Shown one piece after another: positions 19,085 to 54,467 of a stretch of DNA of 64,000 nt. Source of the DNA: Oscillatoria sp. SIO1A7 (GTDB lineage Bacteria; Cyanobacteriota; Cyanobacteriia; Cyanobacteriales; Laspinemataceae); contig JAAHFN010000035.1 in the NCBI GenBank assembly GCA_010672965.1, positions 1-64,000 on the forward strand, given 5' to 3'. A program made the translations under genes and the position numbers. A model generated the notes under the pieces. It had not been told where the DNA came from and made no database searches. It was given only the letters and a program-made list of their open reading frames with translations. How positions within the stretch are numbered: position 1 is the stretch's first letter; each line of letters starts with the position of its first letter.

Positions 19085-19098
19085 TGCGATTAGGCCGT

Positions 19099-24132: not shown

Positions 24133-24171
24133 AGTTCTCTGTGTCCTCAATTATTTTCTTAAAGCTTGTAT

Positions 24172-26333: not shown

Positions 26334-26339
26334 AATTTC

Positions 26340-26499
26340 ATGGGCATGGGGCATTGGGCATGGGGCATGGGGCATGGGGCATGGGCATGGGGCATTGGGC
26401 ATGGGGCATTGGGCATGGGGCATGGGGCATGGGGTATGGGGCATGGGGCATTGGGCATTGGGCATGGGGCATTGGGCATGGGGCATGGCGCATTGGGCA
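26340..26499. repeat. 160-bp GGGCATG/GGGCATT array
   Basis: The longest array in the window, a mixture of GGGCATG and GGGCATT heptamers and some hexamers. It ends seven bases before the start codon of the MDR gene, so here it lies at a 5' end. Confidence 0.95.
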
Positions 26500-28195: not shown

Positions 28196-28528
28196 TAGGG
28201 GAGAAACCCGGTTTTTTTGAACCCCCGGGTTTCTGGCTCCCAATCTAATGCCCAATGCCACCCAGCCCAAGGACCCCCTCCCAAGAGGCTTTTAAGGGTA
28301 TGTTTTTTAGATTTGGCATTTTTTAGAGGTATCGAGGGCGTAGGGGCGACAGCATTCCCGAGACAGCTTTTGCTCTTATACAAAAATTATTGTATTGGAA
28401 TGCTTCGCCCCAGAAACTCATGCACCCCACCGATTGCGCTCATTTGGGAGATTATAAAAAACATACCCTTGAAAGCTCCCAAGAGGGGGAGGTTGCCCAA
28501 TTCCCAATGCCCAATGCCCAATGCCCTA
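28196..28528. repeat. hairpin element and stop-codon array
   Basis: Another GTAGGGGCGACAGCATTCC / GGAATGCTTCGCCCC hairpin (28338-28412) is followed by an AATGCCC array (28495-28528). The array includes the TAG stop of the Moco subunit gene. Confidence 0.75.
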
Positions 28529-30901
28529 GTTATTTGAATTCATTGCCCGCCAAACTTTTTCTGGGGTCAGCGGCATATCTAGGTGCCTGACACCCAAGTC
28601 CGAGAGGGCATTGCAAACCGCATTGACAACAGCCGGCGCTACCGGCGGATTGCTCACATCCCCAGCACCTTTTGCCCCTAGGGGATTGTGCGGGGTTGGG
28701 GTCACCGTGCGATCCAACTCAAAGTTTGGCAATCCCGAAGCCCTGGCTATTGGGTAAGTTGTATAGTCGTCGCTTAGCAATTGCCCGTCGGCATCGTAGA
28801 TGGTTGATTCATACAGGGCCTCGCTGATGCCCAAATGAATATTGCCGTGGGTCTGGCCGTCAACCACCATTGGATTGCCCACATTGCCAAAATCGTTTAC
28901 CGCCACATAGCGAATAAGTTCTACTTCGCCGGTTCCTTCGTCCACTTCGACCAGAGCAATATGAGTTCCAAAAGGATAGTTAAAGTCTGGCGGGTCGAAG
29001 AAAACAATAACTTCCAATCCCGGTTCGATGTCCGGGGGCAAATCCCAGGCGTACCAAAGCGCTAAAGCAAGATCTTTAAGAGTCTTTGCGTTATCCGGCG
29101 ACCCTTGCGGATAAAAGTTGCCGTCCTCAACTACCACATTTTCTTCCGGCACTTGGAACATATAAGCGGCTAGCTTGCGGGCTTTATCGTTGATTTTTTC
29201 GCAAGCCTTGTGGACCGTAGCGCCTTCAACGCTAAAGGAGCGGGAACCATAGCTGCCTTGGGCGAAAATTGCCCCTTTGGTGTCCGAATGGAGGATTTCT
29301 ATTTGCTCCATATCGACCCCAAGAGCCTGAGCGGCAATTTGGGCAAACGTGGTTTCGTGGCCCTGCCCGTGGGGTTGGGTTCCCATCATTATGCTGACAT
29401 CGCCAGTTGGGTGAACTCGGACGTGGGCGCTACCCCAGGTGCTGCCATTGAGGCCGATTTTCGAGGCCATAACCGAGCAAGGACCAACACCAGCGATCGC
29501 CGTATAAGAACCGATACCGACACCTAGGCGCTTTCCTCGGGCTTTGGCTTCTGCCGATCGAGAGGAAATGTTTTTGTAATCTATAGCATCTAAGGCTTTA
29601 TCGAGAGCAACCTCATAGTTCCCGGTATCGTAAGTCCAGCCCAAACCGTTGTCATAAGGAAAGCGATCGGGCGGCACCATATTTTTGCGTCGCACTTCCG
29701 CCGGATCCATCCCTATTTCCGCCGCGAACATATCCACCATCCGCTCCATAGTGAAATGGGCTTCGGCACGTCCCGCCCCCCGAAGCGGCCCCGTCTGCAC
29801 GGTATTCGTGAAAGCACAATATACTTCATAGAAGGGATTCGGGATGGCATAAGAGCCAGTTATGCTGCGACCTGTCAAGCTCGTCGGTGCCCCCGGGCCG
29901 TTAGTGGCTGGGTAAGCCCCTAGATTCGCATAGTTGGTGCATTTTAGGGCCGCAATTTCCCCATCTTTGCTTCCGGCTATGGTGACGTAATGGATATGGT
30001 CGTGACAGTGAACTGTAGTGCGAGCCAAGCCTTGGCGCGTATCTATCCATTTGACGGGTCGCTCTAGTTGCTTGGCCAAGAAAAGCATAATCGCCGTTTC
30101 TTGGTATAGATAACCTTTGGACCCGAAGCTGCCGCCAGTGTAGGGAACGATAACCCGCAGTTTGTTGTAGGGAATTCCCATTACGAGCTGGGAGAGCAAG
30201 AAGCGGTTCCCGTGGGGAATTTGGGTATTCGTCCAGAGGGTGTATTCTTCTGTTTCCGGGTTGTAGTCGCCAATGGTTCCCCGCGTTTCGCTGGAGTTTG
30301 CCATCACCCGGGGGATGCGAATTCTTTTGTTTACTACTACTTCTGCAGCAGCGATCGCCTTATCTGTTGCTTCCTTATCCCCATAACTAGCGTACTGATT
30401 GAGATTTCCCGGCACCGCATCGTGCAGTTGCGGAGCCGTATCTTTCACCGCTTCCTCTGCATCTACCACCACCGGCAGCGGTTCGTACTCTATTTTAATA
30501 CCCGCCAGAGCGTCATAGGCTTGCTCCCGGGTCTCCGCCACGACGACGGCCACAAAGTCCCCGACATATCTAACCTTATCCGTTGCCAGAACCGTTTGGG
30601 CTCCGGGAAGTCCATAAGGATGGGGCGGGAATTTTGCCTCGGCACCGCCAGGATTCATAATCACAGGCAGGGGCAGAATCGAGCTTGTGTCGGCCCCAGT
30701 TATTACTTTTACTACCCCTGGCATCTTCTCTGCAGCACTGGTATCGATACCTTTTATTAAGGCATGGGCTTCGGTGCTATGTAGAATTGCCGCATGCAGC
30801 ATATTGGGTAGGTTAATGTCGGCGACAAATTCTGCTTCCCCCCGAAGCAACTTCGGATCTTCGCGCCGCTTAACCGATGTTCCTAATATTTGTTTTGCCA
30901 T
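28526..30901 (-). CDS. xanthine dehydrogenase family molybdopterin subunit (CoxL form II-like)
   Basis: A 791-residue large subunit that binds molybdenum-cytosine dinucleotide and hydroxylates aldehydes or N-heterocycles. The aldehyde oxidase/xanthine dehydrogenase a/b hammerhead domain (about 20-130) precedes the Moco domains. FGSKGYLYQE, LRGAGRAEA, QPHGQGHETTFAQ and GSYGSRSFS mark the pterin and Mo sites. The loop is of GAGR type, not the CSFR of true CO dehydrogenases. The conserved catalytic Glu near the C-terminus is Asp (LGAKGAGDV, D748). The substrate cannot be read from sequence. MocA-like and XdhC genes 6-8 kb away suggest that the cofactor is inserted. Confidence 0.9.
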   Translation of the reverse strand: MAKQILGTSVKRREDPKLLRGEAEFVADINLPNMLHAAILHSTEAHALIKGIDTSAAEKMPGVVKVITGADTSSILPLPVIMNPGGAEAKFPPHPYGLPGAQTVLATDKVRYVGDFVAVVVAETREQAYDALAGIKIEYEPLPVVVDAEEAVKDTAPQLHDAVPGNLNQYASYGDKEATDKAIAAAEVVVNKRIRIPRVMANSSETRGTIGDYNPETEEYTLWTNTQIPHGNRFLLSQLVMGIPYNKLRVIVPYTGGSFGSKGYLYQETAIMLFLAKQLERPVKWIDTRQGLARTTVHCHDHIHYVTIAGSKDGEIAALKCTNYANLGAYPATNGPGAPTSLTGRSITGSYAIPNPFYEVYCAFTNTVQTGPLRGAGRAEAHFTMERMVDMFAAEIGMDPAEVRRKNMVPPDRFPYDNGLGWTYDTGNYEVALDKALDAIDYKNISSRSAEAKARGKRLGVGIGSYTAIAGVGPCSVMASKIGLNGSTWGSAHVRVHPTGDVSIMMGTQPHGQGHETTFAQIAAQALGVDMEQIEILHSDTKGAIFAQGSYGSRSFSVEGATVHKACEKINDKARKLAAYMFQVPEENVVVEDGNFYPQGSPDNAKTLKDLALALWYAWDLPPDIEPGLEVIVFFDPPDFNYPFGTHIALVEVDEGTGEVELIRYVAVNDFGNVGNPMVVDGQTHGNIHLGISEALYESTIYDADGQLLSDDYTTYPIARASGLPNFELDRTVTPTPHNPLGAKGAGDVSNPPVAPAVVNAVCNALSDLGVRHLDMPLTPEKVWRAMNSNN

Positions 30902-37223: not shown

Positions 37224-37258
37224 CCAATGCCCCATGCCCAATTCCCTATGCCCCATTC
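37224..37258. repeat. GCCCAAT array overlapping a stop codon
   Basis: AATGCCC units that encode the last three residues and the TAG stop of the MocA-like gene. Confidence 0.8.
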
Positions 37259-37839
37259 GCAATTTCTCTTGCCAAATCTTCGGGAGTATCGATATCAATG
37301 GGGTTTCCAGTTTTATCGCAGGGAACCTCGACAACGGGATAGCGCCGCATCAACTGTTTGGCTCCTTCATCCCCTTCTAATTTCATGGCCTCGAACCAGA
37401 GCGATCGCCCCAAAAAAACTGGATTGCGTCGAGCCCCTCCATAAGTAGCTGCGGCCAGTTCGGCTCCTTGGCGGCCAGCAGCGGCTAGGCGGCGATAAGC
37501 CTCGGCACCAATAAAAGGCTGGTCGGCCAAGCCAATACATATTCCTGTTATAGAGCGATCGCCTACCAAAGTTCTCAATGCAGCTTGAAGGCTAGAAGCA
37601 ATTCCCCCCTGCCAATCGGGGTTGCGAACTACAATAGCCTGCTTTGGAGCAACTGCTGCAACTTTTTCGGCTTCGTATCCTACCACCAGCAATACTGGAT
37701 CGAGACCGCTATCTAAAGCTGCTCCAAGAGACCTATCCAAAAGCGTTCGCTCTCCCAACAAAGTTAGAGGTTTGGGACTATCTCCCCCCAAGCGCGATCC
37801 TCTCCCCGCCGCCAATATGGCCACTGCTACTCGCTTCAT
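37246..37839 (-). CDS. MobA/MocA-like nucleotidyltransferase
   Basis: A 197-residue NTP-transferase with the signature LAAGRGSRLGGDSPKPL (10-26) and GLADQPF in the metal region. It fits the MobA/MocA/CTP:molybdopterin cytidylyltransferase group, which attaches CMP (or GMP) to Moco. Xanthine-oxidase-family enzymes use the CMP form, and the adjacent XdhC gene supports MocA. The two lie 266 bases apart on the same strand. The C-terminal NGA and stop come from a repeat array. Confidence 0.8.
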   Translation of the reverse strand: MKRVAVAILAAGRGSRLGGDSPKPLTLLGERTLLDRSLGAALDSGLDPVLLVVGYEAEKVAAVAPKQAIVVRNPDWQGGIASSLQAALRTLVGDRSITGICIGLADQPFIGAEAYRRLAAAGRQGAELAAATYGGARRNPVFLGRSLWFEAMKLEGDEGAKQLMRRYPVVEVPCDKTGNPIDIDTPEDLAREIANGA

Positions 37840-38105: not shown

Positions 38106-39230
38106 TCAAACCTTGTGGATTGGATTCTGATTTTCGCAGAGTCTTTGTCCCGTGCGCCCGTTTTTCAGAGCGATAACCTCGGCCATAATCGAAACTGCAG
38201 TTTCTTCCGAAGTAGTACCGCCAAGATCCAACCCAATAGGTGCGGATATTCTGGCAATTTCGGTTTCGTTTAATCCAGCTTCTTGGAGCCGGCGGACGCG
38301 GTCTGCATGGGCTCGGCGGCTGCCCATCGCACCAATGTAGGCGGCAGGAGTCTGCACGGCCCTAACCAGTGCCGGAACGTCGAATTTAGGGTCGTGGGTA
38401 AGTACGGCAATAATCGTGCGATGGTCTATCGGAGCTACGTCCAAATATTTATGAGGCCATTCTGCGATAACTTGGTCGGCTTCTGGGAAACGGGCTTTGG
38501 TTGCAAAGCGAGAACGAGCATCGCAGACGGTCACCCGATAGCCCAGCATTTTTCCCAGTTTGGATAGCGATCGCGTGAAATCAACAGCACCAAAAATAAT
38601 CAGATGTGGCGGCGGGGAAAACGACTCGATAAAAACTGTTACCTCTGTCTCTCGGCGCTCTCCATTTGGGCCATAATTACATAAATCTTTGAGACCTTGG
38701 GCGAGGAGCCCTCTGGCATCCCGCTCTACAACCCGGTCTAATTCTGAATTCCCAAAAGAGCCAATTTTGGGCGCGTCCTCGGCAACTATAATTTTTGCTC
38801 CCGCTAGAGCCCCCTCAACCATAGTACAAATAGCTGCTGGTTTTTCCGAAGCTTTGCGAATGGCATCCAAGACCGCACTAATAGGAATATGGTTATTATT
38901 ATTTTTTTCTAAATTATGCGTTGCTAAAGATTCTACGAATACCTGAATCGTTCCGCCACAGGTCAGACCGACTGATAAACCCAATTCGTCGGTAATTCCG
39001 TAAGTTGTTAGTCTGGGCTGGCTATCGGCGATCGCGGCTAAAGCTTCTTCTACTACCGCCCCCTCCACGCAGCCGCCACTAATCGAGCCCAGCACCTCGC
39101 CGGCTTCATTTACGGCCATTACCGCTCCTGGTTCTCTAGGACTAGATCCCCTAGCGCCAACCAGAGTTGCTAAAGCCACTGAATCGCCCCGACTCAGCCA
39201 TTCTTCAATGCGATCGAGTATTTCTTTCAT
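38106..39230 (-). CDS. XdhC/CoxI family Moco maturation factor
   Basis: A 374-residue protein of the XdhC/CoxI family. These bind Moco-cytosine dinucleotide, promote its sulfuration and hand it to the large subunit. The N-terminal XdhC domain has GSISGGCVEGAVVEEAL (about 48-64) and LTCGGTIQVFVE. The C-terminal Rossmann-like domain has FGAVDF, GYRVTVCDAR and GAMGSRRAHADR, then APIGLDLGGTTSEE. All expected segments are present. With the MocA-like gene it forms a maturation pair, which argues that the local Mo enzyme receives its cofactor. Confidence 0.9.
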   Translation of the reverse strand: MKEILDRIEEWLSRGDSVALATLVGARGSSPREPGAVMAVNEAGEVLGSISGGCVEGAVVEEALAAIADSQPRLTTYGITDELGLSVGLTCGGTIQVFVESLATHNLEKNNNNHIPISAVLDAIRKASEKPAAICTMVEGALAGAKIIVAEDAPKIGSFGNSELDRVVERDARGLLAQGLKDLCNYGPNGERRETEVTVFIESFSPPPHLIIFGAVDFTRSLSKLGKMLGYRVTVCDARSRFATKARFPEADQVIAEWPHKYLDVAPIDHRTIIAVLTHDPKFDVPALVRAVQTPAAYIGAMGSRRAHADRVRRLQEAGLNETEIARISAPIGLDLGGTTSEETAVSIMAEVIALKNGRTGQRLCENQNPIHKV

Positions 39231-39450: not shown

Positions 39451-40227
39451 TTACTTATTCGCCAATGCTTCCTGCTTGAGCTGCTCTAACATTGCTGGCA
39501 GCATTCCTGCCAGGTATTTTTCGACACCCTTGGGATCTTGGAGTATTTGTTGGGAAATTTGAGTAGCTTGCTCTCCCGGATAGACATCTTCCGTATCGTT
39601 TGCGATCGCTTCCAATGTGGCTCTTACCACCTCTTCTGGAGCCACTTTCGGCGGCGGATAAAACTCGCCAAACTTGGTATCTACCGTTCCGGGCATTACT
39701 GCAACTACCAGAGTTTCTTGGGCGGCCAGCTCTGCTCGCACGCATTGGGTTAGGGATAATTCTGCTGCCTTTGAGGCGCAATAAGTACCCATAAATGGCA
39801 AATTAACTTTAGCAACTAAAGAGACCAAATTGACAATTGCTCCGCCACCATTTGCCTTTAGCACCGGCGCGAAAGCACGACACATGGCCATGCAACCAAA
39901 ATAATTGGTGTTCATTTCCTGGCGGGCGTTTTCCAGACTCGGAGCGCTCATTACCGATGTATCCCGGCTGACTCCAGCATTATTAATCAGCACGGTCAAA
40001 TCGCTACATTGTTCCGCTGCAGCATTCACCTCATCTTCTTTAGTGACATCGATTTGTACCGCAACTACCCGGGATGAGTCCATCGCCACCACTTCTTCCA
40101 GAGAAGCCAATTTGCGACCTGCTGCATAGACTTTGGCTACCTTTGCATCCAGCAGTTGCTGGACAAATACTTGTCCGATGCCGCCGTTTGCTCCCGTTAC
40201 CAGGACTACCGCACCTTCTAGATTCAT
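39451..40227 (-). CDS. short-chain dehydrogenase/reductase
   Basis: A 258-residue classical SDR: cofactor motif TGANGGIG (11-18), NNAG (82-85) and catalytic S136, Y149 and K153. It oxidises or reduces alcohol/carbonyl substrates with NAD(P). It lies upstream of xdhC on the same strand, 220 bases away. Substrate unknown. Confidence 0.9.
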   Translation of the reverse strand: MNLEGAVVLVTGANGGIGQVFVQQLLDAKVAKVYAAGRKLASLEEVVAMDSSRVVAVQIDVTKEDEVNAAAEQCSDLTVLINNAGVSRDTSVMSAPSLENARQEMNTNYFGCMAMCRAFAPVLKANGGGAIVNLVSLVAKVNLPFMGTYCASKAAELSLTQCVRAELAAQETLVVAVMPGTVDTKFGEFYPPPKVAPEEVVRATLEAIANDTEDVYPGEQATQISQQILQDPKGVEKYLAGMLPAMLEQLKQEALANK

Positions 40228-40534: not shown

Positions 40535-42940
40535 CTAGAAATTAAACTGAGTTCGGAAGTTTGTAATCACAATAGTTGGGTTATCGTCGAAATTATTAGC
40601 ATTGCCGATGACAAACACAGAAGGAACGATAGCAATATTCGGGCTTACCGGGAAGAAATAGCTAGCTTCAAACTCGTATTGAGTTCCGCCATTGCCGCTC
40701 CCCGTAATCAAAAACTCGCTTCCGTCCAAAATATCGTAGGGCACTAGAAACGAGAGCTGTCCCATAGAGCCCTGCTTGCCCAGATTCGGGAAAGCCAAGC
40801 CAATTTGGTAAGATTGGACGTTCACTTCTCCATCCGAGCGTCCCGGCGTCTTGGCAAAGATATTGGTACTGCCATAGCTATAGCGTCCGTAAATCCCAAA
40901 GCCCGGAGTAATCAGCCAGTCAGCATTGATAGCAAAAGTATCTGCCGTCGCATCCCCAACCCTACCGCCAAAACCATCATCGGCTACTCCCAACAGCGGC
41001 TCGGCAATTCCGAAGCCAATTACCCCGCCAATTTCCTGGATATTAGAGCGGGTGTACAACAACTTAATATTAGAAGTCTGAGTAGGACGGAAAATTAGCT
41101 CTGCAGTCGCCGTATTGGTGGGAGAGAATACGCCATCTGTGAAATCGCTAGCGGAATTAAACAAGCTGGATGGCAAGTATTCGTTACTTTCGCCAATATA
41201 GGCCAGATTCAGTTGCAGCTTGGGATTGATATTCCACATCACCAAAGCGCCAGCACCACGGTCAATAGCATTAACTAGGGTACTGTTGGCCGAGTTGAAA
41301 GAGAAGAAATTGAACAAGAACGGAGCGCCAAACTGAAAGGCAAACTGGTTGCCCTCTATGAAGCGAAAGAAGTTAAACCTAGGACCGACAACTACTTGCA
41401 AGTTGTCTCCTACCGGGAATTGGTAAAACATCTCCCGCAGGTTGACTTCATTGGGATTAACCCCACCTCCCTGGGTCGTGAAATCAGTCCCATAAGTGAA
41501 TTCAAAACCATCGGAGGCATAAGTATTGCCTAGAGGTAGAGCGTCGCTATTGCCAAACGCTAATTGGGTTACCAGAGAGTCTCTACCTGTAAAAGAGGTA
41601 ACAAAATCAATCCATACCAAGCCATTAGCAGTGGCATTAGGGTTGCCGTCGAGTTCGTCGATAAAGCGGCTGGCGCGACTCGGTGCGAATTCATTAACAA
41701 ATGCTTCTCGCTTGAGCCCATCCCCACCAAAGCCTGCATTCGCATTCAACCAAGCAAACGCATACATTTTGGTAGTGGTAGAAAACTGATTTGCTCCCAG
41801 TTCGGCGACGCGCTCTTCTAAGCCATCTACCCGAGCGCGGATGGCCGCCAGTTCGAGGGCGAATTCCTCTTGCAGTCGTTGCAGTTGCAGCAAATCTGCT
41901 TGGCCAATTTCCGAGGCCGCTTCCTCAATCAGACCCTGCACCACATTCATACATTCGTCCAAACCCGCCGCAAACTCGTAGCGAGTCATGGCTCTATTGC
42001 CCCGGTAGGTGCCATCTGGATAAGCCAAAAGACAGTTATACCGCTCGGCAAGGCCGCGCAAGGCACTGTAGGCCCAGTCTGTCGGGCGCACGTCCGATAG
42101 CCTATCGACGGAGTTCACCCGTTCCAAGGGTACGCTATCATCGCCAAATCCTTGGCTTAAGGTCGGATCGCTAGTCGGAACCACCCCTCCCTGGATTTCC
42201 TGAATCGAAAGAACCTCCGTATCTATCAAAGACTGGAGGCTCGACGGTCTAGTAGGGGTTATTTCTACAGAGGCTGTTGTTTCTGCTGCGGTTTTGGAGG
42301 CAGCCCGGTTTTCGGTGCTAGCACCTGGAGAGAGTTCGGCAGTAGAAGAAAGTTCGGCAGTAGGGGACTTGCGCGGAAATAAAGTACCAGTCCCTAAGCG
42401 TTCCACCGTTCGGGCTGAGCGGAGTCGAAGCCCTTGAACTGGTACATTATTAACTTGCAAGTCCCTAGAAGAAAGTTCGGCAACTGGCGATAGGCGATCG
42501 CCTACTTCGGTCGCCGATTCTGCCACAGACAATTCTGCCACCGAGAATCCCGAAGCTTCCCCTAACTCTTGGGAAGTTGCATTTTCCCGATTTACCGTAT
42601 CTATGACAGGAGTCCGATCGCTTGCTCTCGATTCGCCTAATGCCGCTTTTGCCTTAGCGAGGAAACTTTCAATTTTGGGGATTGGCAAGGAATTTTTTAC
42701 GGGCTCTTGGCCGGGTTCGATATTTACATCCAACCTTGGCTGAAAGTTACTTATAGAGCCGTTCCCAAAAATATCGGTTTCCGATGCAGGCAGATTTGAA
42801 GACAAATTGTTATGGTCTGGTTCGCTAGCGATCGCCACCGATGGAGCCCCTACTGCGACGCTAGAAACCAACAAATACATCCAAAGGCTTGTTGGAGCAG
42901 CTTTAAGCAGATAGCTCCAACCATTTGCTCCTTTATCCAT
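40535..42940 (-). CDS. SLH-domain carbohydrate porin (OprB-like)
   Basis: An 801-residue outer-membrane porin of the cyanobacterial SomA/OprB type. An N-terminal export signal (about 1-40) is followed by a long low-complexity region (about 40-280). Next come one SLH domain (LSDVRPTDWAYSALRGL to YRGNRAMTRYEFA, about 285-345), a coiled coil (EEFALELAAIRARVDGLEERVAEL) and an OprB barrel ending in phenylalanine (QFNF). The SLH domain anchors it to peptidoglycan. In the low-complexity region a 107-base inverted-repeat element is read in frame. Ion or small-solute passage is the family role. Confidence 0.9.
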   Translation of the reverse strand: MDKGANGWSYLLKAAPTSLWMYLLVSSVAVGAPSVAIASEPDHNNLSSNLPASETDIFGNGSISNFQPRLDVNIEPGQEPVKNSLPIPKIESFLAKAKAALGESRASDRTPVIDTVNRENATSQELGEASGFSVAELSVAESATEVGDRLSPVAELSSRDLQVNNVPVQGLRLRSARTVERLGTGTLFPRKSPTAELSSTAELSPGASTENRAASKTAAETTASVEITPTRPSSLQSLIDTEVLSIQEIQGGVVPTSDPTLSQGFGDDSVPLERVNSVDRLSDVRPTDWAYSALRGLAERYNCLLAYPDGTYRGNRAMTRYEFAAGLDECMNVVQGLIEEAASEIGQADLLQLQRLQEEFALELAAIRARVDGLEERVAELGANQFSTTTKMYAFAWLNANAGFGGDGLKREAFVNEFAPSRASRFIDELDGNPNATANGLVWIDFVTSFTGRDSLVTQLAFGNSDALPLGNTYASDGFEFTYGTDFTTQGGGVNPNEVNLREMFYQFPVGDNLQVVVGPRFNFFRFIEGNQFAFQFGAPFLFNFFSFNSANSTLVNAIDRGAGALVMWNINPKLQLNLAYIGESNEYLPSSLFNSASDFTDGVFSPTNTATAELIFRPTQTSNIKLLYTRSNIQEIGGVIGFGIAEPLLGVADDGFGGRVGDATADTFAINADWLITPGFGIYGRYSYGSTNIFAKTPGRSDGEVNVQSYQIGLAFPNLGKQGSMGQLSFLVPYDILDGSEFLITGSGNGGTQYEFEASYFFPVSPNIAIVPSVFVIGNANNFDDNPTIVITNFRTQFNF
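42361..42467. mobile_element. 107-bp inverted-repeat insertion inside the porin gene
   Basis: TAGGGGACTTGC at one end and GCAAGTCCCTA at the other are inverted, and internal GTACCAG/CTGGTAC also pair. The element interrupts a local tandem repeat (GAAGAAAGTTCGGCA) and carries a GGGCTGAGCGGAGTCGAAG segment known as a common cyanobacterial dispersed repeat. It is translated as part of the porin. TAG next to both ends may be the target duplication. Confidence 0.7.
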
Positions 42941-43498: not shown

Positions 43499-44434
43499 CT
43501 AGCTAGCAGTTACGGTCAGATTATAACCCGTTTCACCTTGGCGTGGAGGTAGATCCGGCGGCGCAAGGGCGCTGCCAGTCAACGGGGAAAGAGAAACCCG
43601 CACGAAGTAGGTTCCCGCAGATAAAGGAAGGCTGAAGGACTCGGGGAGGGTATTGAAGTTGACCGAAAACCCTAAGATATCCGCTGGCTCTACCAGGCCA
43701 TTGTTATTGTTGTCAAAGATTAGCTCTACATCCGCATCTTGGGTCAGGCCATCCAGACCTACGCCGACCGTACTAGGAGCGCCGAGACTAAAGCGGTAGA
43801 TATCGGTGGTGTTTTGAGGACTAACTGTATCTGTGATTGGTCCAAGGGAGCCGCTGAGTACCCCCAGGTCGATCGCAGTACCCAGATTTTCGCTATTGGG
43901 TGGCGGATCTCCTCGCCGTCCCTCTTCCAGGCCAAAGAGAATAAAATGTTGAAGAGCGGTAGTGATGCCAGAGGCAATCTGTCCGCTCACATCCGGATTG
44001 CTGTTGATATAAAAATCCGTATCGAAGTTCTCGCTGGGGTCGCGGGCGGGTTCAAATTGACCGAATTGGACAAAGTGCTGATAGGCCGTGAGCAAGTCTG
44101 CCGCTACCACAGCATCCACATCGGGATTATTTTGCAGATAATAAGGAGTATCGAAATCTGCGATCGGGTCTCTGCCCTCGAATTGACCTGCTGCCAAGAA
44201 ATGGTCGAATAGGCTGGGGATAAGACCTTGCTCTACGGCATCGGATACATCTGGGTTCGTGGCTTGGTAAAAGCTGTCATCGAACAACGGACCGGAGTCT
44301 CTGCCTTCAAATTTTCCAAGTAGCGTGAAATGCTCGAATCCGCTACTAAAAGTACCCGCTGCAACTGCATTAGCCACATCTGGATTCTCGGCGAGATAGA
44401 CTCCCTCGTTAAATAAGTCTTGGGCGGTTAACAT
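43499..44434 (-). CDS. NPDV-repeat / PPC-domain extracellular protein
   Basis: A 311-residue protein with four imperfect repeats of about 45 residues (about 5-170) built on FYxxxNPDVxxAV and HFxxxGxFEGRDP. They are followed by a bacterial pre-peptidase C-terminal (PPC)-like beta domain (about 200-310, DIYRFSLGAPSTVGVGLDG). This repeat accompanies secreted and hemolysin-like proteins in cyanobacteria. There is no Sec signal, so type I or other export is possible. It probably acts outside the cell as a binding module. The stop lies at the border of an AGCAGTC-type array. Confidence 0.75.
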   Translation of the reverse strand: MLTAQDLFNEGVYLAENPDVANAVAAGTFSSGFEHFTLLGKFEGRDSGPLFDDSFYQATNPDVSDAVEQGLIPSLFDHFLAAGQFEGRDPIADFDTPYYLQNNPDVDAVVAADLLTAYQHFVQFGQFEPARDPSENFDTDFYINSNPDVSGQIASGITTALQHFILFGLEEGRRGDPPPNSENLGTAIDLGVLSGSLGPITDTVSPQNTTDIYRFSLGAPSTVGVGLDGLTQDADVELIFDNNNNGLVEPADILGFSVNFNTLPESFSLPLSAGTYFVRVSLSPLTGSALAPPDLPPRQGETGYNLTVTAS

Positions 44435-44585: not shown

Positions 44586-46370
44586 CTATATCGCCCTTCC
44601 CAAGAGCGCGCTCCATTCTCCGCTTTGTCGGATTTTTTCCATAGAGCGTTCTGCGATCGCTGCGATCGTCAGCGCTGGGTTGCAAGCTGCAGTCGAGCCT
44701 GGAATCAACGCCCCATCTACCACATAAAGTCCTTGTGATTGATAGCCCAGTACCCGCCCGTCTAAATCGCAAGCCATACCCATAACAGCTCCTCCTAAAG
44801 GGTGAGCCGTCGAAGGGGCAGCGACGGTTGAACTTGGACGGCGACTTAAAGAAGTATTCCTGAGATTGAGGCGATTTGTCATCCGATACATCGCCTTCAC
44901 ATAGGCTGAATTAGAATTATCCGGCACCCTTAGATTTACCGAATCGTCCGCTGCGTTATAAGTAAAGGGCACTGTTTCCGTTGGCAGACCAATACCCAGA
45001 CCCAAAAGACCATTATTGTTAGTCCACTGCGCCAAGTTCATCAGCGAGACTGGATTAATTCCGTTATAGAGCGGATTGGGTCGGGTCAAAACGGGAGTGC
45101 CTTGGTGACCGGGAGCCAGAGATACCCCATCAAACTCCTCGACAAAGGGGAAATCTTGAAGCACGGCTCCTGCTGGACCTCCTTGTCCGTTGTTATTGCT
45201 ATTGCTGGTAGAGGGCAAACCAAAGAGAAGTCCCAAATGATCGCCATTCCCCCCCCAGCCAGCGCCAATTAAATTATTAGCGCTCAAATTAGCGAGAGTA
45301 TTTTTTCCTTTCGCTCTGACCAACATAGCAGAACTGCCAACCGAACCCGCTCCCAAAAATACCAGGCGAGAGATAAAGGTTTTGGTTCTAACGGTATTGC
45401 CATTGTCATCAATTTCATTAACCATGACCTGGAAACCGCCTCCGGGGTTGTCGGCAATATCCATAACCATGTGCTGGGGCAGAATAGTTGTGCCCAAAGC
45501 TTCCGCCATTGCCAAATAATTTTTATCCACGCTGGTCTTGGCATCGCTATTGAGGCCATGCCAGGTTTCTCCAATAATGGCGGAAGGTACTCTAGTACCA
45601 TTTATTTCATCGCGAACCTTATCCCACTCTATCCCCAGATTGACTAGAAAACTCCGGTATCCTGCTGCCCGTCCTTGTTCTAGCATAACCCGCGTTCCTC
45701 GATACCAATTAGTATTGAGAATATCCGGGGGAGTCGCTCCACTTGGAATAACGGAAAGAACCCGAGGGTAGTAGGTCTGAGCCATTTCACCATAGTCAAC
45801 ACCTTGGGGAAAGATGCGGCGGAAATTCTGCTCGTTGGGCTGATAGAGAATAGCGTTATATACAAGAGATCCGCCCCCAACTCCCGCACCTGTCAGAATG
45901 GCAACTCCCCTGATATTGACTTTCTCTAAATTTAGTCTAGGATCTGGGAACCCTAAAAAATCCAATAGATCGAGATTGTCGAACCCTTCAAAAACCCCTG
46001 CATAGGGTGGATTTATAGTCAGGTTATCGACTGCATCTCCAAAACCAAAACCTACTACTGGCGAGTTGAATCTCAGCCACCCCGATCGCCTATCTGGAGC
46101 GCGGAACGTAGAAAAAGTTTCGTTGGCTTGGGGATTTGTCACCGGCCAGCGACGACCTTTTTCCAATACCACTGTATTGATTCCCGCCTCTGCCAATCGT
46201 AGCGCTGCGACCGCTCCGCCAAAGCCGCTGCCAATCACTACGGCTTCCACCATCTGAGTTTCTTGGGTTCTGGCGAAAGGAACCCGCAGCAGGGGCGTAG
46301 CTAACCCTGCCGAGAACAGCGCCGCATTCCTAATAAAGCGACGACGAGATTGAGAAGAAAAATTACTCAT
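44586..46370 (-). CDS. Tat-exported GMC-family FAD oxidoreductase
   Basis: A 594-residue flavoprotein of the glucose-methanol-choline family, of the cholesterol-oxidase-like kind. A twin-arginine signal (SRRRFIRNAALFSAGLA, 8-24) directs the folded protein out of the cytosol. FAD binding is shown by VIGSGFGGAVAALRLAEAG and E at the end of the second strand (VVLEKG). HPLGGAVMG, VVDGALIPGS and NPALTIAAIAE hold the conserved His/Asn active-site region. It would oxidise an alcohol or sterol-like substrate with O2 or a periplasmic acceptor. It lies on the same strand as the NPDV-repeat gene. Confidence 0.9.
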   Translation of the reverse strand: MSNFSSQSRRRFIRNAALFSAGLATPLLRVPFARTQETQMVEAVVIGSGFGGAVAALRLAEAGINTVVLEKGRRWPVTNPQANETFSTFRAPDRRSGWLRFNSPVVGFGFGDAVDNLTINPPYAGVFEGFDNLDLLDFLGFPDPRLNLEKVNIRGVAILTGAGVGGGSLVYNAILYQPNEQNFRRIFPQGVDYGEMAQTYYPRVLSVIPSGATPPDILNTNWYRGTRVMLEQGRAAGYRSFLVNLGIEWDKVRDEINGTRVPSAIIGETWHGLNSDAKTSVDKNYLAMAEALGTTILPQHMVMDIADNPGGGFQVMVNEIDDNGNTVRTKTFISRLVFLGAGSVGSSAMLVRAKGKNTLANLSANNLIGAGWGGNGDHLGLLFGLPSTSNSNNNGQGGPAGAVLQDFPFVEEFDGVSLAPGHQGTPVLTRPNPLYNGINPVSLMNLAQWTNNNGLLGLGIGLPTETVPFTYNAADDSVNLRVPDNSNSAYVKAMYRMTNRLNLRNTSLSRRPSSTVAAPSTAHPLGGAVMGMACDLDGRVLGYQSQGLYVVDGALIPGSTAACNPALTIAAIAERSMEKIRQSGEWSALLGRAI

Positions 46371-47799: not shown

Positions 47800-48264
47800 T
47801 TATTGAGGTTTAATTTTTTCCGCAGCTAGCTGTGCGGCGCGAATCACATTTTGGTAGCCGGTATCCCGGGACAAAACTCCATCTACCCAAGTGCGAATTT
47901 CCCCTTCGCTTGGGGATGGATTGCGTTGGAGCAGATCGCTCAAAGACATTAGCAACCCTGGAGTTGAAAAACCGTTCTGAACCGCATGGGCTTCCCAAAA
48001 TGCCTCTTGCAAGGAATTCAACTGGCCGTTTTGCTCCAGACCCTCGACGGTTACGATTTCCGCACCATCCGCTTGCACTGCCAATATAAAAGAGCTTTTT
48101 ACGGATACTCCGTTTAGCAACACAGTACAGGCTCCCGATATAGAACCACCATCGCTTTTTGTTCCTGTTAGACCCAGGCGATCGCGCAGAAAATCTACCA
48201 GCAGCAATCTCGGTTCCACATCTTCGCTATAAGACTTGCCGTTTACTGTCAGTGAAATTTGCAT
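47800..48264 (-). CDS. CoxS-like [2Fe-2S] subunit that has lost its cysteines
   Basis: A 154-residue protein matching the small subunit of xanthine dehydrogenase/aldehyde oxidases from end to end. The N-terminal ferredoxin-like half starts ISLTVNGKSY and contains LLVDFLRDRLGLTGT. The C-terminal helical domain contains LQEAFWEAHAVQNGFSTPG and DTGYQNVIRAA. Eight cysteines normally bind two [2Fe-2S] clusters. Here only C46 remains; the other positions read D38, S43, S58, N97, S100, S132 and D134. The frame is intact and the length normal, so this is not a decayed gene by frame. It lies 17 kb from the Moco subunit gene, an unusual separation. It may keep only a structural role. Confidence 0.85.
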   Translation of the reverse strand: MQISLTVNGKSYSEDVEPRLLLVDFLRDRLGLTGTKSDGGSISGACTVLLNGVSVKSSFILAVQADGAEIVTVEGLEQNGQLNSLQEAFWEAHAVQNGFSTPGLLMSLSDLLQRNPSPSEGEIRTWVDGVLSRDTGYQNVIRAAQLAAEKIKPQ

Positions 48265-48835
48265 AAAATTTACTCTAGCTTTTTGAAGTTATTGGTGGGA
48301 TGCATAGCTGTCTGGGGCGAAGCATCCATTTATCAAAGTTTATTTTATAGCAAAGGAGCTTCCCTGGATGCTGTCGCCCTTACGCCTTAATATAATAGCA
48401 GGGAGCGGTCAGCATAGGGTTCAATGCCCAATTCCCAATGCCCCATTCTCAATGCGAACATGCCCAATGCCACCCACCCCAAGGGCACCCTCCCAAGAGG
48501 GGGAAGTTGCCCAATGCGAACATGCCCAATTTCCAATTTAAAACTCAAAACTCAAAACTCAAAACTCTCCCACCCCCATTCCCCATTTTTATTTGCTATA
48601 AAGTGGCTGACCGTTGACGGTTCAATTCATTTTCAACCATCAACTGCCAACCACCTATGTACTATTCGGCAGGCGCAAGCCTAATTTGTTTTGCGCATTA
48701 CTTTTACTTTTTCCTTCCAAGGGAGGCAAGGGGGACAAGGGAGAGGGGGAGACAAGGGAGATTCAATCTCTCTACACCCTACCCGACACCCGACACCCTA
48801 CCCGACACCCGACACCCGACACCCGACACCCAGTC
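48265..48835. repeat. hairpin element and several arrays
   Basis: Contains GGATGCATAG / GGATGCTGTCGCCC hairpin pieces (48298-48382), AATGCCC and GCGAACATGCCCAAT units (48424-48535), AAAACTC units (48540-48567) and a CCGACAC array (48772-48831) ending four bases from the next stop. A repeat-rich plus-strand frame here is not credible. Confidence 0.75.
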
Positions 48836-49228
48836 TTAGGCTACCGAACCATCTGGGTATTGGGTCATCCCGGCAAAGTGGATCTTAATCTTGCCATCTT
48901 CTATTACCCAGCTATCGGCAAAGCGCATTTTGGCTTCGCCCTGAGGAGTTTGCATAGTAATAGCTTCCACTATCATCAGGGTAGTCGGATTCTCGGTTTC
49001 TGCCCAAAAAGCAATATCCGTTTCCAGCCCCTCAATGCCTAGAATTCCCTGGAAGTGTTCTTTCAGTTCTTCATGGCCTTTGAAATACAGAGGCTTTTTC
49101 ATAAAGCTGCTGATCAGAACGGCATCTTCGGCATATTGACCCAAGAGCCCATCAATATCCTTTTTCAGGATTAACTCGATATGCTCTTTGTACATTTTAC
49201 CCAGAGCAGTATCCGGTACTCCTTTCAT
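48836..49228 (-). CDS. NTF2/SnoaL-like protein 1
   Basis: A 130-residue alpha+beta-barrel protein: helices with HIELILKKDIDGLLGQYAEDAVL, then FKGHEELKEHFQGIL and strands EAKMRFADSWVIEDGKIKIHF. This fits the SnoaL/DUF4440 part of the NTF2-like superfamily, which includes isomerases, cyclases and binding proteins. The active site cannot be assigned. It is one of three such genes in 1.6 kb, all on the minus strand downstream of the ThDP decarboxylase gene. Confidence 0.78.
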   Translation of the reverse strand: MKGVPDTALGKMYKEHIELILKKDIDGLLGQYAEDAVLISSFMKKPLYFKGHEELKEHFQGILGIEGLETDIAFWAETENPTTLMIVEAITMQTPQGEAKMRFADSWVIEDGKIKIHFAGMTQYPDGSVA

Positions 49229-49354
49229 TTTTCTGTTTCTCCCTAGGTTTTATTTAGTGAAATTGTTTTTGGTTCGAGCGATCGCCTTGGTATTTAGGGC
49301 GACTTTGTAAGGATGGAGGATGTTGGGCGCAAGTCCTTCCCGCAGGGTAGGATG

Positions 49355-49473
49355 AAGTGAAAAGTGAAAAGTGAAAAGTGAAAAGTGAAAATTTAAGAGA
49401 ACCAACCATTCCCTAAACTCTACACCCTAAACCCCACACCCTACACCCCACACCCCACACCCTAAACCCTACA
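49355..49473. repeat. AAAAGTG and CCCTAAA/CCCCACA arrays
   Basis: An AAAAGTG run (49355-49390), then CCCTAAA, CCCTACA and CCCCACA units (49410-49473) that include the TAG stop of the second SnoaL-like gene. Confidence 0.85.
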
Positions 49474-49900
49474 GCTCGGCCGAACCCGGGTAATATTTGA
49501 GTTCGTCAACTATGTAAATGGCGATCGCGGGCTTACCAGTAGCAGGCGATCGCGTCACCTTCCAAGTCTGATAAGCATCCAAAACAATCCGCTTGCTGGT
49601 TGCTTCTGGCGGATTCCACACGCTGGCTTCCCACTTCACCACCACTTTGATGTCCGCTTCCTCGCCACTAGACGAGGTTATAGTCACTTCTTTGACCGTA
49701 TGGACTTCATCAAAGAAAATGTTAATAACCTTATTGTACCAACCCGTATATCCTTCAAACCCAGTAACCGTAGCTTCGGGAAAGCGGAACTCCACATCTT
49801 CGGTCATTAGAGGACGATATTCCTCCAAAGGATCGTGAACGTCCAGCTTTTTATACCAATCTACTGCAAACTCTTTAATTTCGGCCTCACTTAGAGCCAT
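49469..49900 (-). CDS. NTF2/SnoaL-like protein 2
   Basis: A 143-residue NTF2-like protein. EIKEFAVDWYKKLDVHDPLEEYRPLMTED forms the helical entry, and FEGYTGWYNKVINIFFDEVHTVKEV lies where SnoaL proteins close the cavity. Strands at the end carry AYQTWKVTRS. Longer and less acidic than its two neighbours. The stop codon sits inside a CCCTAAA-type array. Substrate unknown. Confidence 0.75.
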   Translation of the reverse strand: MALSEAEIKEFAVDWYKKLDVHDPLEEYRPLMTEDVEFRFPEATVTGFEGYTGWYNKVINIFFDEVHTVKEVTITSSSGEEADIKVVVKWEASVWNPPEATSKRIVLDAYQTWKVTRSPATGKPAIAIYIVDELKYYPGSAEL

Positions 49901-50064
49901 AACCTCTTATCCTTTCCTTAATTACTTTTTTTTACAACCAGCGATCGTCTCAATTTATCTATATCAATTCCTCTATCCTTCGCTTTTTTTAAGCCGTATC
50001 GTAACCAATAGAGGAATTGCTATAGGTAACGCAACGCCTTCATCACGCTGCGGTAGGGAAAAAA

Positions 50065-50460
50065 TTATTTCTGGGGTTTCTCCGACGCCCAAAAACCGTA
50101 GTGAATGGCAATCTTGCCATCTTTCATAGTCCAGGCATCCCCGACTTTCATCAGACCCAGAGCGCAAGTAAACTCGGCTTGAAAAAAGATGCTTCCTTCT
50201 GTGCCGTCAAAATCCTCGGTAAAATCGATTTTCTTGACCTCGATGGTGCCGATAACGCTCATGTACTTGTGGAAGAACGCTTTAATTCCATCCCGACCGC
50301 GAACGGTCATGGGGGGTTCTTCATCGTCAAAACCATTGAAAAAAGTAATCAGCACCGCATCGGGGGTATAGTCGTTATCGACCATTGCATCGATTTCGCC
50401 TGCCCCAATCCGTTCTAGGTGCGTGTCAAAAAACGCTTGTCCTGGTTTTTTGTCTGCCAT
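50065..50460 (-). CDS. NTF2/SnoaL-like protein 3
   Basis: A 131-residue protein clearly related to protein 1: FDTHLERIGAGEIDAMVDNDYTPDAVLI and GRDGIKAFFHKYMSVIG are followed by VGDAWTMKDGKIAIHYGFW. The two probably arose by duplication. The cavity-lining acidic residue in YTPDAVL is shared. It is the first NTF2-like gene downstream of the ThDP decarboxylase, 200 bases away. Confidence 0.78.
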   Translation of the reverse strand: MADKKPGQAFFDTHLERIGAGEIDAMVDNDYTPDAVLITFFNGFDDEEPPMTVRGRDGIKAFFHKYMSVIGTIEVKKIDFTEDFDGTEGSIFFQAEFTCALGLMKVGDAWTMKDGKIAIHYGFWASEKPQK

Positions 50461-50666: not shown

Positions 50667-52373
50667 TTATTGCCCGCAGCGAAGGCCAATCAGCTCGGGA
50701 TGGACATTACCCTCTAGAACCACATCAATTAAAAATGGCCCGTCATGTTCCACAGCCTTTTTAATCGCTGGACCAATTTCCCCTGGTTCCTTAACGATCG
50801 CTCCTTCAACTCCCATTGCTCGCGCCAGTTCATGGAATTGAATATCTGGCTTCGACAAATCAAAAGCAAGGGGGAAATCATGTTCCGGTATGCTCTCCTC
50901 CTTCCAATACGCCGAGATATTCAACTGAAGCAGCCGGTAAGAGCGATTGTTACAGATGACAACCTTAATATTCGTATTGTGACGAGCTGCACTCCAGAGC
51001 GCCTGGATAGTGTACATACTGCCGCCGTCGCCGGTAAACACCCAAACTGGTTTATCGGGATTCGCCAACTTAGCACCAATACCGCCAGGAATACCTACCC
51101 CCAAAGAACCGCCACGGGTTTGGAAATAATGTCCGGGCTTCGTTGGCGGCTGGTATCTGACAAGAGCCGGATAACAGGTCAAAGCTTCGTCAAAAATAAC
51201 CGTATTATCGTCAAGGTGCGGTGCTAGCTCTTCCATAAACCGAGAAAAATGCAGGGGCACTTCATCCCGCACTTTCTTATCTGCTTCCAGCGCTGCAGCC
51301 AGCTTTTCTTCCTTCGCCTTGCCCAGCTCTTGGGTACGAGCTTCCGCTGCGCTCTTGGCCTCCGGTGTCATTACTTCTTCTAGCGCTTCGGCCAGCTTGG
51401 CCAGGGTCAGCTTCGGATCGCTAACTATCCCCATATCTACCGGATGGTTCTTGGCAATTTCATAAGCGTTCAAATCGATATGAATTACCTTAGAATCCGG
51501 AGCAAAGATATCAGTCAGTTCTGGAAAAACTTCTGGCAATACATAGGTGCCCGCGACCAGATTGACATCGCCTTTTTCCATAGTCGGGCGGCTAGCGTAG
51601 CCAAACATATGGCCCGTTCCCCCTTGGTAGAGCGGGTGGGTGTGGTCCATGTTCAGCTCCCCTGCATCTGCCTCCCAAACCTCTGCGCCGAGCAGTTCTG
51701 CAACTCTAGTTAGCTCTTCTTGCGCTTGGGAATAGGCGATACCATCTCCCACAAAAATCATCGGTTTTTTGCCCGATGTCAGAATATTTGCTGCCTCTTT
51801 AACTACGCTATCTTCTGGCACTACGCGGGTCGAGGGTATAAATGTCGGAACCACTGGCTCGACAACGGGCATATCCAAAATATCTTGGGGCAAGCAGATA
51901 TATACTGGACCCATCGGCGGCGTAGCAGCTATTTTAATTGCTCGTCGGAGCATTCGCAGCAAAGAAGATGGCTCCATTACCATTGCAGACCATTTTGTGA
52001 CCGGCTCCGCCATTGCCACCAAGTCCCCAGCCATCTGAGCGTCCATTGCCTGATACTTAATACCCGCATCTCCCCCAATTACTACCAGGGGTGCATGACC
52101 TCTATAGGCTTGGTATAGAGCGCCGATAGAATTACCCAAGCCGGGAGTGCTGTGGATTTGCACTACTGTCGGCTTTTTGGTTGCTCGCGCATATCCATCC
52201 CCTGCCATCACCGCGATGGTTTCTTGTAACGTGAGGATGTATTTGATTTGTGGATATTCGGCGAGAGCATCTAGGAAACCCTGCTCCACTGTCCCCGGGT
52301 TTCCAAACATATATTCAATGCCATCGGCTACGAGTTGCTCCAGAATGGCAAAGCGACCAGTTTTAGCAGTCAT
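50667..52373 (-). CDS. ThDP-dependent decarboxylase/synthase (benzoylformate decarboxylase-like)
   Basis: A 568-residue three-domain thiamine-diphosphate enzyme. E51 in LTLQETIAVMAGDGYA activates ThDP. H74 in IHSTPGLGN corresponds to the active-site His of benzoylformate decarboxylase. The Mg-ThDP motif GDGGSMYTIQALW to CNN is present near residues 445-480. Its closest style is 2-oxo acid decarboxylation to an aldehyde, or carboligation. It is minus-strand, with a DJ-1 gene upstream and three SnoaL-like genes downstream. A role as aldehyde source for the local oxidoreductases is inference. Confidence 0.88.
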   Translation of the reverse strand: MTAKTGRFAILEQLVADGIEYMFGNPGTVEQGFLDALAEYPQIKYILTLQETIAVMAGDGYARATKKPTVVQIHSTPGLGNSIGALYQAYRGHAPLVVIGGDAGIKYQAMDAQMAGDLVAMAEPVTKWSAMVMEPSSLLRMLRRAIKIAATPPMGPVYICLPQDILDMPVVEPVVPTFIPSTRVVPEDSVVKEAANILTSGKKPMIFVGDGIAYSQAQEELTRVAELLGAEVWEADAGELNMDHTHPLYQGGTGHMFGYASRPTMEKGDVNLVAGTYVLPEVFPELTDIFAPDSKVIHIDLNAYEIAKNHPVDMGIVSDPKLTLAKLAEALEEVMTPEAKSAAEARTQELGKAKEEKLAAALEADKKVRDEVPLHFSRFMEELAPHLDDNTVIFDEALTCYPALVRYQPPTKPGHYFQTRGGSLGVGIPGGIGAKLANPDKPVWVFTGDGGSMYTIQALWSAARHNTNIKVVICNNRSYRLLQLNISAYWKEESIPEHDFPLAFDLSKPDIQFHELARAMGVEGAIVKEPGEIGPAIKKAVEHDGPFLIDVVLEGNVHPELIGLRCGQ

Positions 52374-52600: not shown

Positions 52601-53467
52601 CTACCAACCGTAGCGTTTCAGTCCATCTTCGAGAACCTGAATTAAGAGTTTGCCGCATTCTAGGGAAGAAGCTGTCGAACGGCTGGTGATGAAGGGATAA
52701 TCTACGAGTACAGAGGTTTCGTGACCGACGTTGCCGATAAAAGCACCATCGGGGCCGACTGCATCGCGAAGAATGTATTCTAAGGGATAGAAGGGAGGCC
52801 CAAAGTTAATATAGCCATCTCCAAATCCTTTGTTAGAACCATCGAGGGCATGAGGTCCTTCAAATCCGGTTCCATCTAGATAGTCATAATCGATGGGGTG
52901 TCCGGTGACATGCTTGCCCCAAATAATGCTCTTTTTCTCCCGGATATCCCGTGCGAATGCCAGACAGGTAACTCCGTAGCATTCCGTGGCCACGGGCTTG
53001 TCGAGTTTGACAAAGCCGAGGATTAGTTCGTGCAGTCTGGAGTTGTTGGCCAGATCTATCAACGCGCCACTACCGCCGACAATTACTAGAGCATCGTATT
53101 TGGGCAGCTCTTCCTCGACGATTTTATCCACCGTCTTGTAATAGGCTTCCATGTCCCGCAGATAGGTAGGAGAGCTGGGGTAGGCTCGCAGGGGAAACCA
53201 ATCTGCAAGGCTTTTGGGATTGTCTAGGCGACCGGACTTGTCCAAGGCTACGGTCTTTTTACCCATTTCTTCTGAGGTGACTGACCGACCTAGAGGGGGA
53301 TCGATGTAGCCGGGAGCGCAGCTTACGGAAAGGGGAGTCGGCTTCTTGCCTGTGGGAGTGATAAATTCGATGTTATAGCCCGCACCATCGCAAGCTTCTA
53401 CAGGACCGACTAGCTCTTCGCCCCAGTAGCCCCAGTCCGATACCATTACTAGAATGTTCTTGCTCAC
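52601..53467 (-). CDS. DJ-1/PfpI family protein, long form
   Basis: A 288-residue DJ-1/PfpI-type protein. I start at the GTG at 53467, which has GGAG eight bases upstream and gives MSKNILVMVSDWGYWGEEL; a TTG 12 codons earlier is less likely. The nucleophile is probably C163 in ATECYGVTCLAF, followed by Tyr rather than His, with the acidic partner in WGEEL. Insertions after residue 45 make it longer than the usual 190 residues, similar to the Hsp31/ThiJ-like branch. It may act on glyoxals or other carbonyls. Confidence 0.8.
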   Translation of the reverse strand: MSKNILVMVSDWGYWGEELVGPVEACDGAGYNIEFITPTGKKPTPLSVSCAPGYIDPPLGRSVTSEEMGKKTVALDKSGRLDNPKSLADWFPLRAYPSSPTYLRDMEAYYKTVDKIVEEELPKYDALVIVGGSGALIDLANNSRLHELILGFVKLDKPVATECYGVTCLAFARDIREKKSIIWGKHVTGHPIDYDYLDGTGFEGPHALDGSNKGFGDGYINFGPPFYPLEYILRDAVGPDGAFIGNVGHETSVLVDYPFITSRSTASSLECGKLLIQVLEDGLKRYGW

Positions 53468-54467
53468 TGAATTATCTCCTAAATCAATAATAAGATCGGT
53501 CAATTTGGTTTGGCAATTTTAGCCACTATTTAGAGCTATCGAAATAGCGCTCTATTTTTCGGCTCGCGATCGCAAGCCCATCATCTCGCCCATCATCTCG
53601 TCCTACAGCAATCTCGTCATATTCCCCGATAGGTTTGCCCCTATCGTTTTGCCCCCAATCGGTATTTGCGACCCATACGACGATTTCTGTCTGTAACGAG
53701 CTTTTCTCTTCCCCTTTTCTCGAAAGCTCTTGCCTTCGATTTCTTCTATGTGCTTTTGAGTTGATTGCACTTGGATTGCTCTTTAGCATTAATTGTGGCG
53801 CTGGGATAGAAACCTTGCTATTTTGACTTATCTCGATCGCTATCTCTGATATCATATCGGTTTGAATGCCTCAAAAAAGCTTCTGCGCAAGGACAGGGCG
53901 TCCCGCCTGTCCGCCTGGGCTCTTTGGGACAGGCGGGACGCCCGTCCTACGGGAGATTCCAAATTTTTTCTGTGGGTATTTAACCAGACTTGATATGAGC
54001 TATTAATCCGCCCACGGATTTTAAACCTAGATGTTTTTTCTGCCTTTGTCCTTTGCCTTACCTATATTTTCTTTTAAAGACTATGTTTTATATGTTTTTT
54101 TGTTTATCCGATCGCTACTATCCAGGTAGTTTTGAAAATTCAGCATTTTTTCCGATGCGAACATTCCACCCACCCCCAACCCCTCCCATAAGGGGAGTGA
54201 CCAATGCCCTTATTGGCATTTATTTATTAGCGGCTATGGATTGCTTCTTCGCGAGCCCGCTAATTTTGAGGCCATTCCAATCCTAGATCTCCGATGCCTT
54301 CTGCCGCAATGGAAAAAATCCCGCTCTTATGTAAAATTTTTACGCTACTGATGCCAAGTCCTTGCTTATGCATGACAGGTACGCGCATCCCCTTGCGATC
54401 GCTTCTGAGGATATAGGAGTCAGCTTAAATCGCAAAATAATAGTTAATAATTAACTATTATTGAAGA
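53468..54467. other. 1-kb region with MITE-B and a doubtful frame
   Basis: A minus-strand frame of 109 codons (53526-53855) begins inside MITE-B and carries a duplicated GRDDGRDDG. It includes VVWVANTDWGQND, so it might be a gene remnant, but I do not call it. MITE-B lies at 53849-53996. The remainder (54000-54467) shows no gene. Confidence 0.5.
53849..53996. mobile_element. MITE-B copy (near twin of 11682-11829)
   Basis: Same arms, loop and flanks as the copy 42 kb away, with only a few differences, including the AAAAAAGCTTCTG and CAAATTTTTTCTGTGG segments outside the stem. Confidence 0.85.

Follow-up and report, generated by a model that had tools for sequence, protein, structure and literature searches.

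What remains of a molybdenum hydroxylase when the subunit that should pass its electrons on has lost almost all of its cluster ligands? Molybdenum hydroxylases have a textbook electron chain of Mo, two [2Fe-2S] clusters and FAD. We analysed a stretch of 64,000 nucleotides from Oscillatoria sp. SIO1A7 (contig JAAHFN010000035.1, hereafter the window), in which a gene for a small subunit of the CoxS type raises this question.

47800 to 48264, minus strand: CoxS-like small subunit with one of eight [2Fe-2S] ligands left (C46); from the open reading frame, translation, Pfam, PDB homologues and AF2.
48127 to 48156, minus strand: distal-cluster loop of CoxS, residues 37-46 (SDGGSISGAC), with C46 as the sole ligand left and one residue missing relative to the loop of 8-Cys subunits; from alignment.

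Translation of the gene gave 154 amino acids with an ATG start and zero internal stops, and the protein could be aligned over its whole length with subunits of the CoxS type (phmmer E values of 1e-45 to 4zoh_C and 7e-42 to 1ffu_A). An AF2 model with 38 relatives as input had a mean pLDDT of 89.7 and a TM of ~0.95 to CO dehydrogenase small chains. Together with the Pfam match to the C-terminal Fer2_2 domain, these data place the protein in the CoxS family by sequence and fold homology over its full length. The ligand pattern of that family for two [2Fe-2S] clusters, CxxxxCxxC...C and CxxC...CxC, is missing. Pfam gave no match to the N-terminal Fer2 domain; in an 8-Cys sister protein both Fer2 and Fer2_2 were matched. 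The 8-Cys cyanobacterial sisters (G197, G162, G149 and G444) carry all eight ligands. Aligned to these sisters, the eight ligand columns of the window protein read deleted, S43, C46, S58, N97, S100, S132 and D134, and the distal-cluster loop changes from GTKSGCDTGQCGACTV to GTKSD-GGSISGACTV. A preliminary description had reported a full-length protein with C46 alone, which open reading frame, phmmer and alignment confirm. It had read the first ligand as Cys replaced by D38, where deletion of one residue is the better description. At the level of sequence, these comparisons show a subunit under selection in which both cluster-binding sites have gone and the fold is preserved. With one of eight ligands and a shortened loop it should be unable to hold either [2Fe-2S] cluster, as had been proposed.

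Searches for relatives showed that the window is not alone. Cys-poor CoxS subunits with one or two of the eight cysteines, 71-77% identical, occur in six further cyanobacterial species, namely G170, Oscillatoriaceae cyanobacterium M33_DOE_052 (G008), Crocosphaera MAG MO_167.B6 (G580/G688), Trichodesmium MAG_R04 (G579/G695), G613 and G690; two of these are MAGs, and M33 is also a metagenome assembly. The remaining CoxS relatives fetched, leaving aside a few incomplete ones, have at least eight cysteines. Matches in a plasmid collection were all below 60% identity, none of them close. C46 alone is kept in four of the seven Cys-poor species, and the other three have one extra cysteine (C132 in M33, C100 in G613 and G690). 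All seven have S58, D134 and the loss of one residue in the distal loop, and six have N97. C46 (48127-48129) is the sole ligand invariant in all seven subunits. The pattern is not chance, because it is common to six further species. In a tree built without the cysteine columns the seven formed one group with moderate support (89/84; 97/92 in a five-species version). Such near identity of the replacements across species might suggest that something else, such as a different metal or a cluster of unusual type, is bound at the two sets of sites (S43/C46/S58 and N97/S100/S132/D134). We regard this as improbable, since the distal loop is one residue shorter, Ser/Asn-rich sets are poor [2Fe-2S] ligands, C46 alone cannot hold a cluster, and the positions of C100 and C132 vary in G690/G613 and M33.

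Pairwise dN/dS comparisons of CoxS were saturated in dS in nearly all pairs (the best, Crocosphaera and G170, gave 0.10/1.02), and a codon maximum-likelihood script was therefore used. Its numbers are approximate, as it takes a fixed tree and one omega per branch class with no among-site rate variation: omega was 0.079 within the Cys-poor clade and 0.067 elsewhere, a difference that was not significant (0.25 lnL), and forcing omega = 1 on the clade cost 265 lnL units, so that neutrality was rejected; a five-species version was also run. Even with this approximate model the Cys-poor CoxS is under purifying selection, and the conclusion is not close to reversal. The conserved, cysteine-lacking clade under purifying selection that the preliminary description had asked to be looked for thus exists, in seven species. 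Decay or sequencing error as the source of the pattern is ruled out by seven independent species and an omega of about 0.08. The view that the gene is a decaying leftover draws on G170 (L033:17936-19578), where CoxL, the large subunit, is cut after ~360 residues with an IS-type transposase ORF (19075-19578) just beyond, and where neither CoxM, the medium subunit, nor XdhC was found in the genome, though the Cys-poor CoxS is intact. In G170 the system is recently breaking up, and decay of CoxS may be starting there. For the clade as a whole that view is refuted by intact frames and by the rejection of neutrality, in agreement with the earlier opinion that this is not simple decay, and we give it very little probability.

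A Cys-complete small subunit encoded elsewhere might serve the complex, leaving another role to the Cys-poor CoxS. No evidence in favour of such a substitute was found. Five genomes were searched with PF01799 (Fer2_2), namely that of the window and those of G008, G170, G579 and G580; each of them matched at the Cys-poor gene alone, and no 8-Cys substitute was found. Three of these genomes are at least 99% complete, and there the idea is contradicted; its probability is close to nil. A second Cys-complete gene combined with relaxed selection, which had been named as a refutation, was thus not encountered in the five genomes.

The partners of CoxS in the window genome are single genes, one large subunit (MoCoBD_2, PF20256) and one FAD_binding_5 medium subunit in the genome search.

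28526 to 30901, minus strand: CoxL-like large (molybdopterin) subunit, 791 aa; from Pfam, genome search and PDB 8uem_A (E 2e-171).
28658 to 28660, minus strand: Asp748 (GAKGAGD) of CoxL at the catalytic-Glu position of the family; from alignment with a PDB homologue.
26919 to 27803, minus strand: CoxM-like medium (FAD-fold) subunit, 294 aa; from Pfam FAD_binding_5 and CO_deh_flav_C, and AF2.
27441 to 27482, minus strand: altered FAD loop of CoxM, residues 108-121, RIGDVFAYRDLACD replacing TIGG(S/N)xxHADPxxD; from alignment.

Among 391 genomes sampled from the order, close CoxS (E < 1e-34) and close CoxL (E < 1e-150) occurred in exactly the same 10 genomes, and in Crocosphaera, Trichodesmium and G170 the gene immediately upstream of CoxL is CoxS. 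Because of this co-occurrence and adjacency, CoxS and CoxL are very likely part of one complex. In G613 and G690 no CoxM was seen within the stretches read around CoxS-CoxL.

CoxL of the window carries PF02738, PF20256 and PF01315, and hence both Mo-pterin-binding domains. The Mo-pterin-site motifs GQG(H/Q)xT and GSYGSR are kept in cyanobacterial CoxL, as is the Gln of TNTQIPH in all eight sequences. The catalytic Glu near Mo that marks xanthine oxidase large subunits is replaced by Asp748, at the position of Glu1261 in bovine XO. Asp stands there in all eight cyanobacterial members that reach it, the 8-Cys sisters included, vs Glu in all 61 other homologues fetched; CoxL of G613 and G690 has GAKGAGD too. 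The catalytic Glu is described as essential and as activating the Mo oxido ligand (PMC10420851).

CoxM matched FAD_binding_5 with an E value of 3.4e-36, and its AF2 model (pLDDT 87.5, TM 0.88 to 1ffv_C) has the expected fold, being least sure near the FAD loop (mean pLDDT 63 for residues 111-120). This loop, which contacts the FAD pyrophosphate in XO-family structures, normally reads T-(I/L)-G-G-(S/N); the window protein has RIGDV. In place of its second Gly all eight cyanobacterial members, again with the 8-Cys sisters, carry Asp or Asn, vs Gly in all 34 others, and its Pro is Leu in all eight. The alignment shows a rebuilt loop. CoxM retains AGGHSLL, the first FAD motif.

Comparison with known systems places these changes in order. 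One close relative is the 8-Cys cyanobacterial sister complex, with CoxL 70-75% identical, the same Asp, the same altered FAD loop and an overlapping neighbourhood; it differs in having all eight [2Fe-2S] cysteines in its small subunit. Since the sisters also carry the Glu and FAD-loop changes, these appear to be earlier than the loss of Fe-S ligands, and parsimony would thus have the Mo-site base and the FAD loop altered first and the Fe-S ligands lost later. Among solved structures, CO dehydrogenases and glyceraldehyde oxidoreductase are the nearest relatives. Aerobic CO dehydrogenase (Mo-Cu; CoxS/CutS, CoxL and CoxM in 1ffu, 1n5w and 8uem) is alike in its three subunits, full-length alignment and predicted folds. 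Here, in contrast, the Fe-S ligands of the small subunit are lost, the FAD loop is changed, Glu has become Asp, and PLRGAGR takes the place of AYRCSFR, the loop of form I CO dehydrogenase (TGPLRGAGR at residue 370 of the window CoxL). As its defining features are lacking, this identity was rejected. Glyceraldehyde oxidoreductase (4zoh; NCBIfam NF041018-NF041020) is the closest solved small subunit by sequence and the best NCBIfam match for the small and medium subunits, but the three subunits fall under the curated NCBIfam cut-offs (191.9/290, 201.8/350 and 546.3/790 bits) and the cofactor sites are changed, so that this identity was also rejected.

Both partners are under purifying selection in the whole cyanobacterial clade, with omega of 0.076 for CoxL and 0.169 for CoxM; the background including the Chloroflexota outgroup is stricter (0.027 and 0.045). 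In the 8-Cys sister G197 (L137:8002-10370), CoxL is split over two frames by an in-frame TGA and is probably a pseudogene or an assembly error. Thus, with CoxL truncated in G170 and interrupted in G197, the complex seems dispensable or lost in some species. The maturation genes bear on whether it still does Mo chemistry.

37246 to 37839, minus strand: MocA-like Mo cofactor cytidylyltransferase; Pfam NTP_transf_3, with NCBIfam TIGR03310 below its cut-off.
38106 to 39230, minus strand: XdhC-family maturation factor; Pfam XdhC_CoxI and XdhC_C.

XdhC was found in eight and MocA-like matches in all nine of the genomes searched, the two MAG matches for MocA being weak. That the whole complex has become a pseudoenzyme, a non-catalytic or binding protein that has kept its fold and does no Mo chemistry, is favoured by the changes in the catalytic Glu, the FAD loop and the Fe-S ligands alike, and by a CoxL and CoxM omega raised over that of the outgroups. 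However, most members keep the Mo-pterin motifs, MocA and XdhC, and in all eight the Glu is replaced by Asp and by no random residue. We therefore consider a pseudoenzyme unlikely.

Among the genes around the complex, SnoaL-like, TPP-enzyme, DJ-1/PfpI, SDR, GMC oxidoreductase and OprB genes recur.

23692 to 24150, minus strand: accessory glyoxalase-like ORF, partly shared; 'glyoxalase' from sequence reading, and synteny.
24417 to 25001, minus strand: accessory PfpI, partly shared; Pfam and synteny.
25350 to 26486, minus strand: accessory quinone-oxidoreductase-like gene, partly shared; Pfam and synteny.
39451 to 40227, minus strand: accessory SDR; Pfam and synteny with L035 (Oscillatoriaceae relative).
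40535 to 42940, minus strand: accessory OprB porin; Pfam and synteny with L035.
43499 to 44434, minus strand: accessory PPC-domain protein; Pfam and synteny with L035.
44586 to 46370, minus strand: accessory GMC oxidoreductase; Pfam and synteny with L035.
48836 to 50460, minus strand: three SnoaL-like genes (48836-49228, 49469-49900 and 50065-50460), conserved neighbours; Pfam and synteny.
50667 to 52373, minus strand: TPP-dependent enzyme (type: benzoylformate decarboxylase / acetolactate synthase), conserved neighbour of CoxS in several members; Pfam, synteny and PDB, closest to benzoylformate decarboxylase in the PDB comparison.
52601 to 53503, minus strand: DJ-1/PfpI-like gene, conserved neighbour; Pfam and synteny.

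With several redox genes adjoining the complex and XdhC retained, an ordinary Mo hydroxylation might persist in which electrons leave Mo by another route, for instance straight to a soluble acceptor or to a partner protein, of which the GMC oxidoreductase, the SDR and the quinone-oxidoreductase-like protein are examples. The catalytic Glu, however, is changed as well, the redox neighbours differ in identity between species, and the buried Mo site of the xanthine-oxidase family normally needs an electron relay. On balance we think this route somewhat doubtful.

We suggest instead, with about an even chance of being right, a three-subunit complex of the xanthine-oxidase family that would no longer use its Mo-FeS-FeS-FAD chain, with a Mo site working without long-range electron transfer. 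The small and medium subunits may now be a structural scaffold, and the Mo site may run a self-contained cycle, in which a substrate would be converted without net redox (hydration, isomerisation or transhydroxylation) or a second substrate or small acceptor would re-oxidise Mo on the spot. The more specific statement, that a redox-neutral or self-contained Mo reaction arose in cyanobacteria as the catalytic Glu, the FAD site and the two Fe-S clusters were lost stepwise from a complex that remained under selection, is tentative. Loss of the chain is favoured by the Cys-poor clade of seven, its omega, the uniqueness of the PF01799 gene, the co-occurrence and adjacency of CoxS and CoxL, the change of Glu to Asp, the lost Gly of the FAD loop, the intact predicted fold, and the retention of Mo-pterin motifs, XdhC and MocA. 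Against it stand XdhC once more, the kept AGGHSLL motif, with which FAD binding is possible, the broken CoxL in G170 and G197, the unseen CoxM near CoxL of G613 and G690, and the raised omega of CoxL and CoxM. Relatives of XdhC usually act on Mo sites that are sulfurated and accept hydride (PMC2997495). The retention of XdhC suggests that Mo still changes oxidation state, and we therefore stop short of proposing a reaction wholly without redox. The gene context (TPP carboligase/decarboxylase-type, DJ-1/glyoxalase-like, SDR and GMC genes) weakly suggests a small carbonyl compound as the substrate. The Mo enzyme with an altered electron path that was first proposed is thus only one of the options. 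Since the partners have changed too, which the preliminary description had overlooked, a better fit is a self-contained Mo cycle in which the Mo-FeS-FAD path has been lost as a whole.

Precedents exist for parts of this scheme. The nearest that we found is the N-terminal ferredoxin-like domain of proline dehydrogenase, a [2Fe-2S] ferredoxin fold whose cysteines are reported to be lost (PMC1949818); it belongs to another protein family, not to a molybdenum hydroxylase. Acetylene hydratase, a non-redox W enzyme (cited in PMC10673323), is a precedent for a net non-redox reaction at a pterin-bound metal, but it is a DMSO-reductase-family enzyme with a different fold and a retained Fe-S cluster. 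The earlier statement that no Fe-S-free CoxS-family member has been described is not contradicted by searches of an open-access library, which found none; this is weak evidence of absence and does not prove the statement. If our reading is true, a lineage under selection has had its chain dismantled stepwise, with an intermediate stage still living in sister species, a natural experiment that would separate the parts of molybdenum hydroxylases required for chemistry from those required as wiring. This lineage may then reveal non-redox or self-contained Mo-site chemistry in the xanthine-oxidase family. It also warns that annotation as '(2Fe-2S)-binding protein' by homology can be wrong.

Several minor observations concern the surroundings of the complex. 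The ORFs at 25350-26486 and 48424-48684 lie within or start in 'CCCAATGCCC'-type repeats, and the listed start of the former is probably too early, its N-terminus being repeat-encoded. In two genomes the complex has next to it a protein that combines a SnoaL-like domain with calcium-binding repeats of the RTX type (L035:4077-8794 and L138:5103-7643), and a protein that looks similar by sequence lies beside CoxS in G170 (L033:14539-16719). Next to the 8-Cys CoxS of G162 is a gene (L038:9954-10667) whose product weakly resembles the alpha chain of nitrile hydratase. In the Crocosphaera MAG (L062:4205-7101), the same run of genes contains two insertions, a GMC oxidoreductase and a cytochrome P450.
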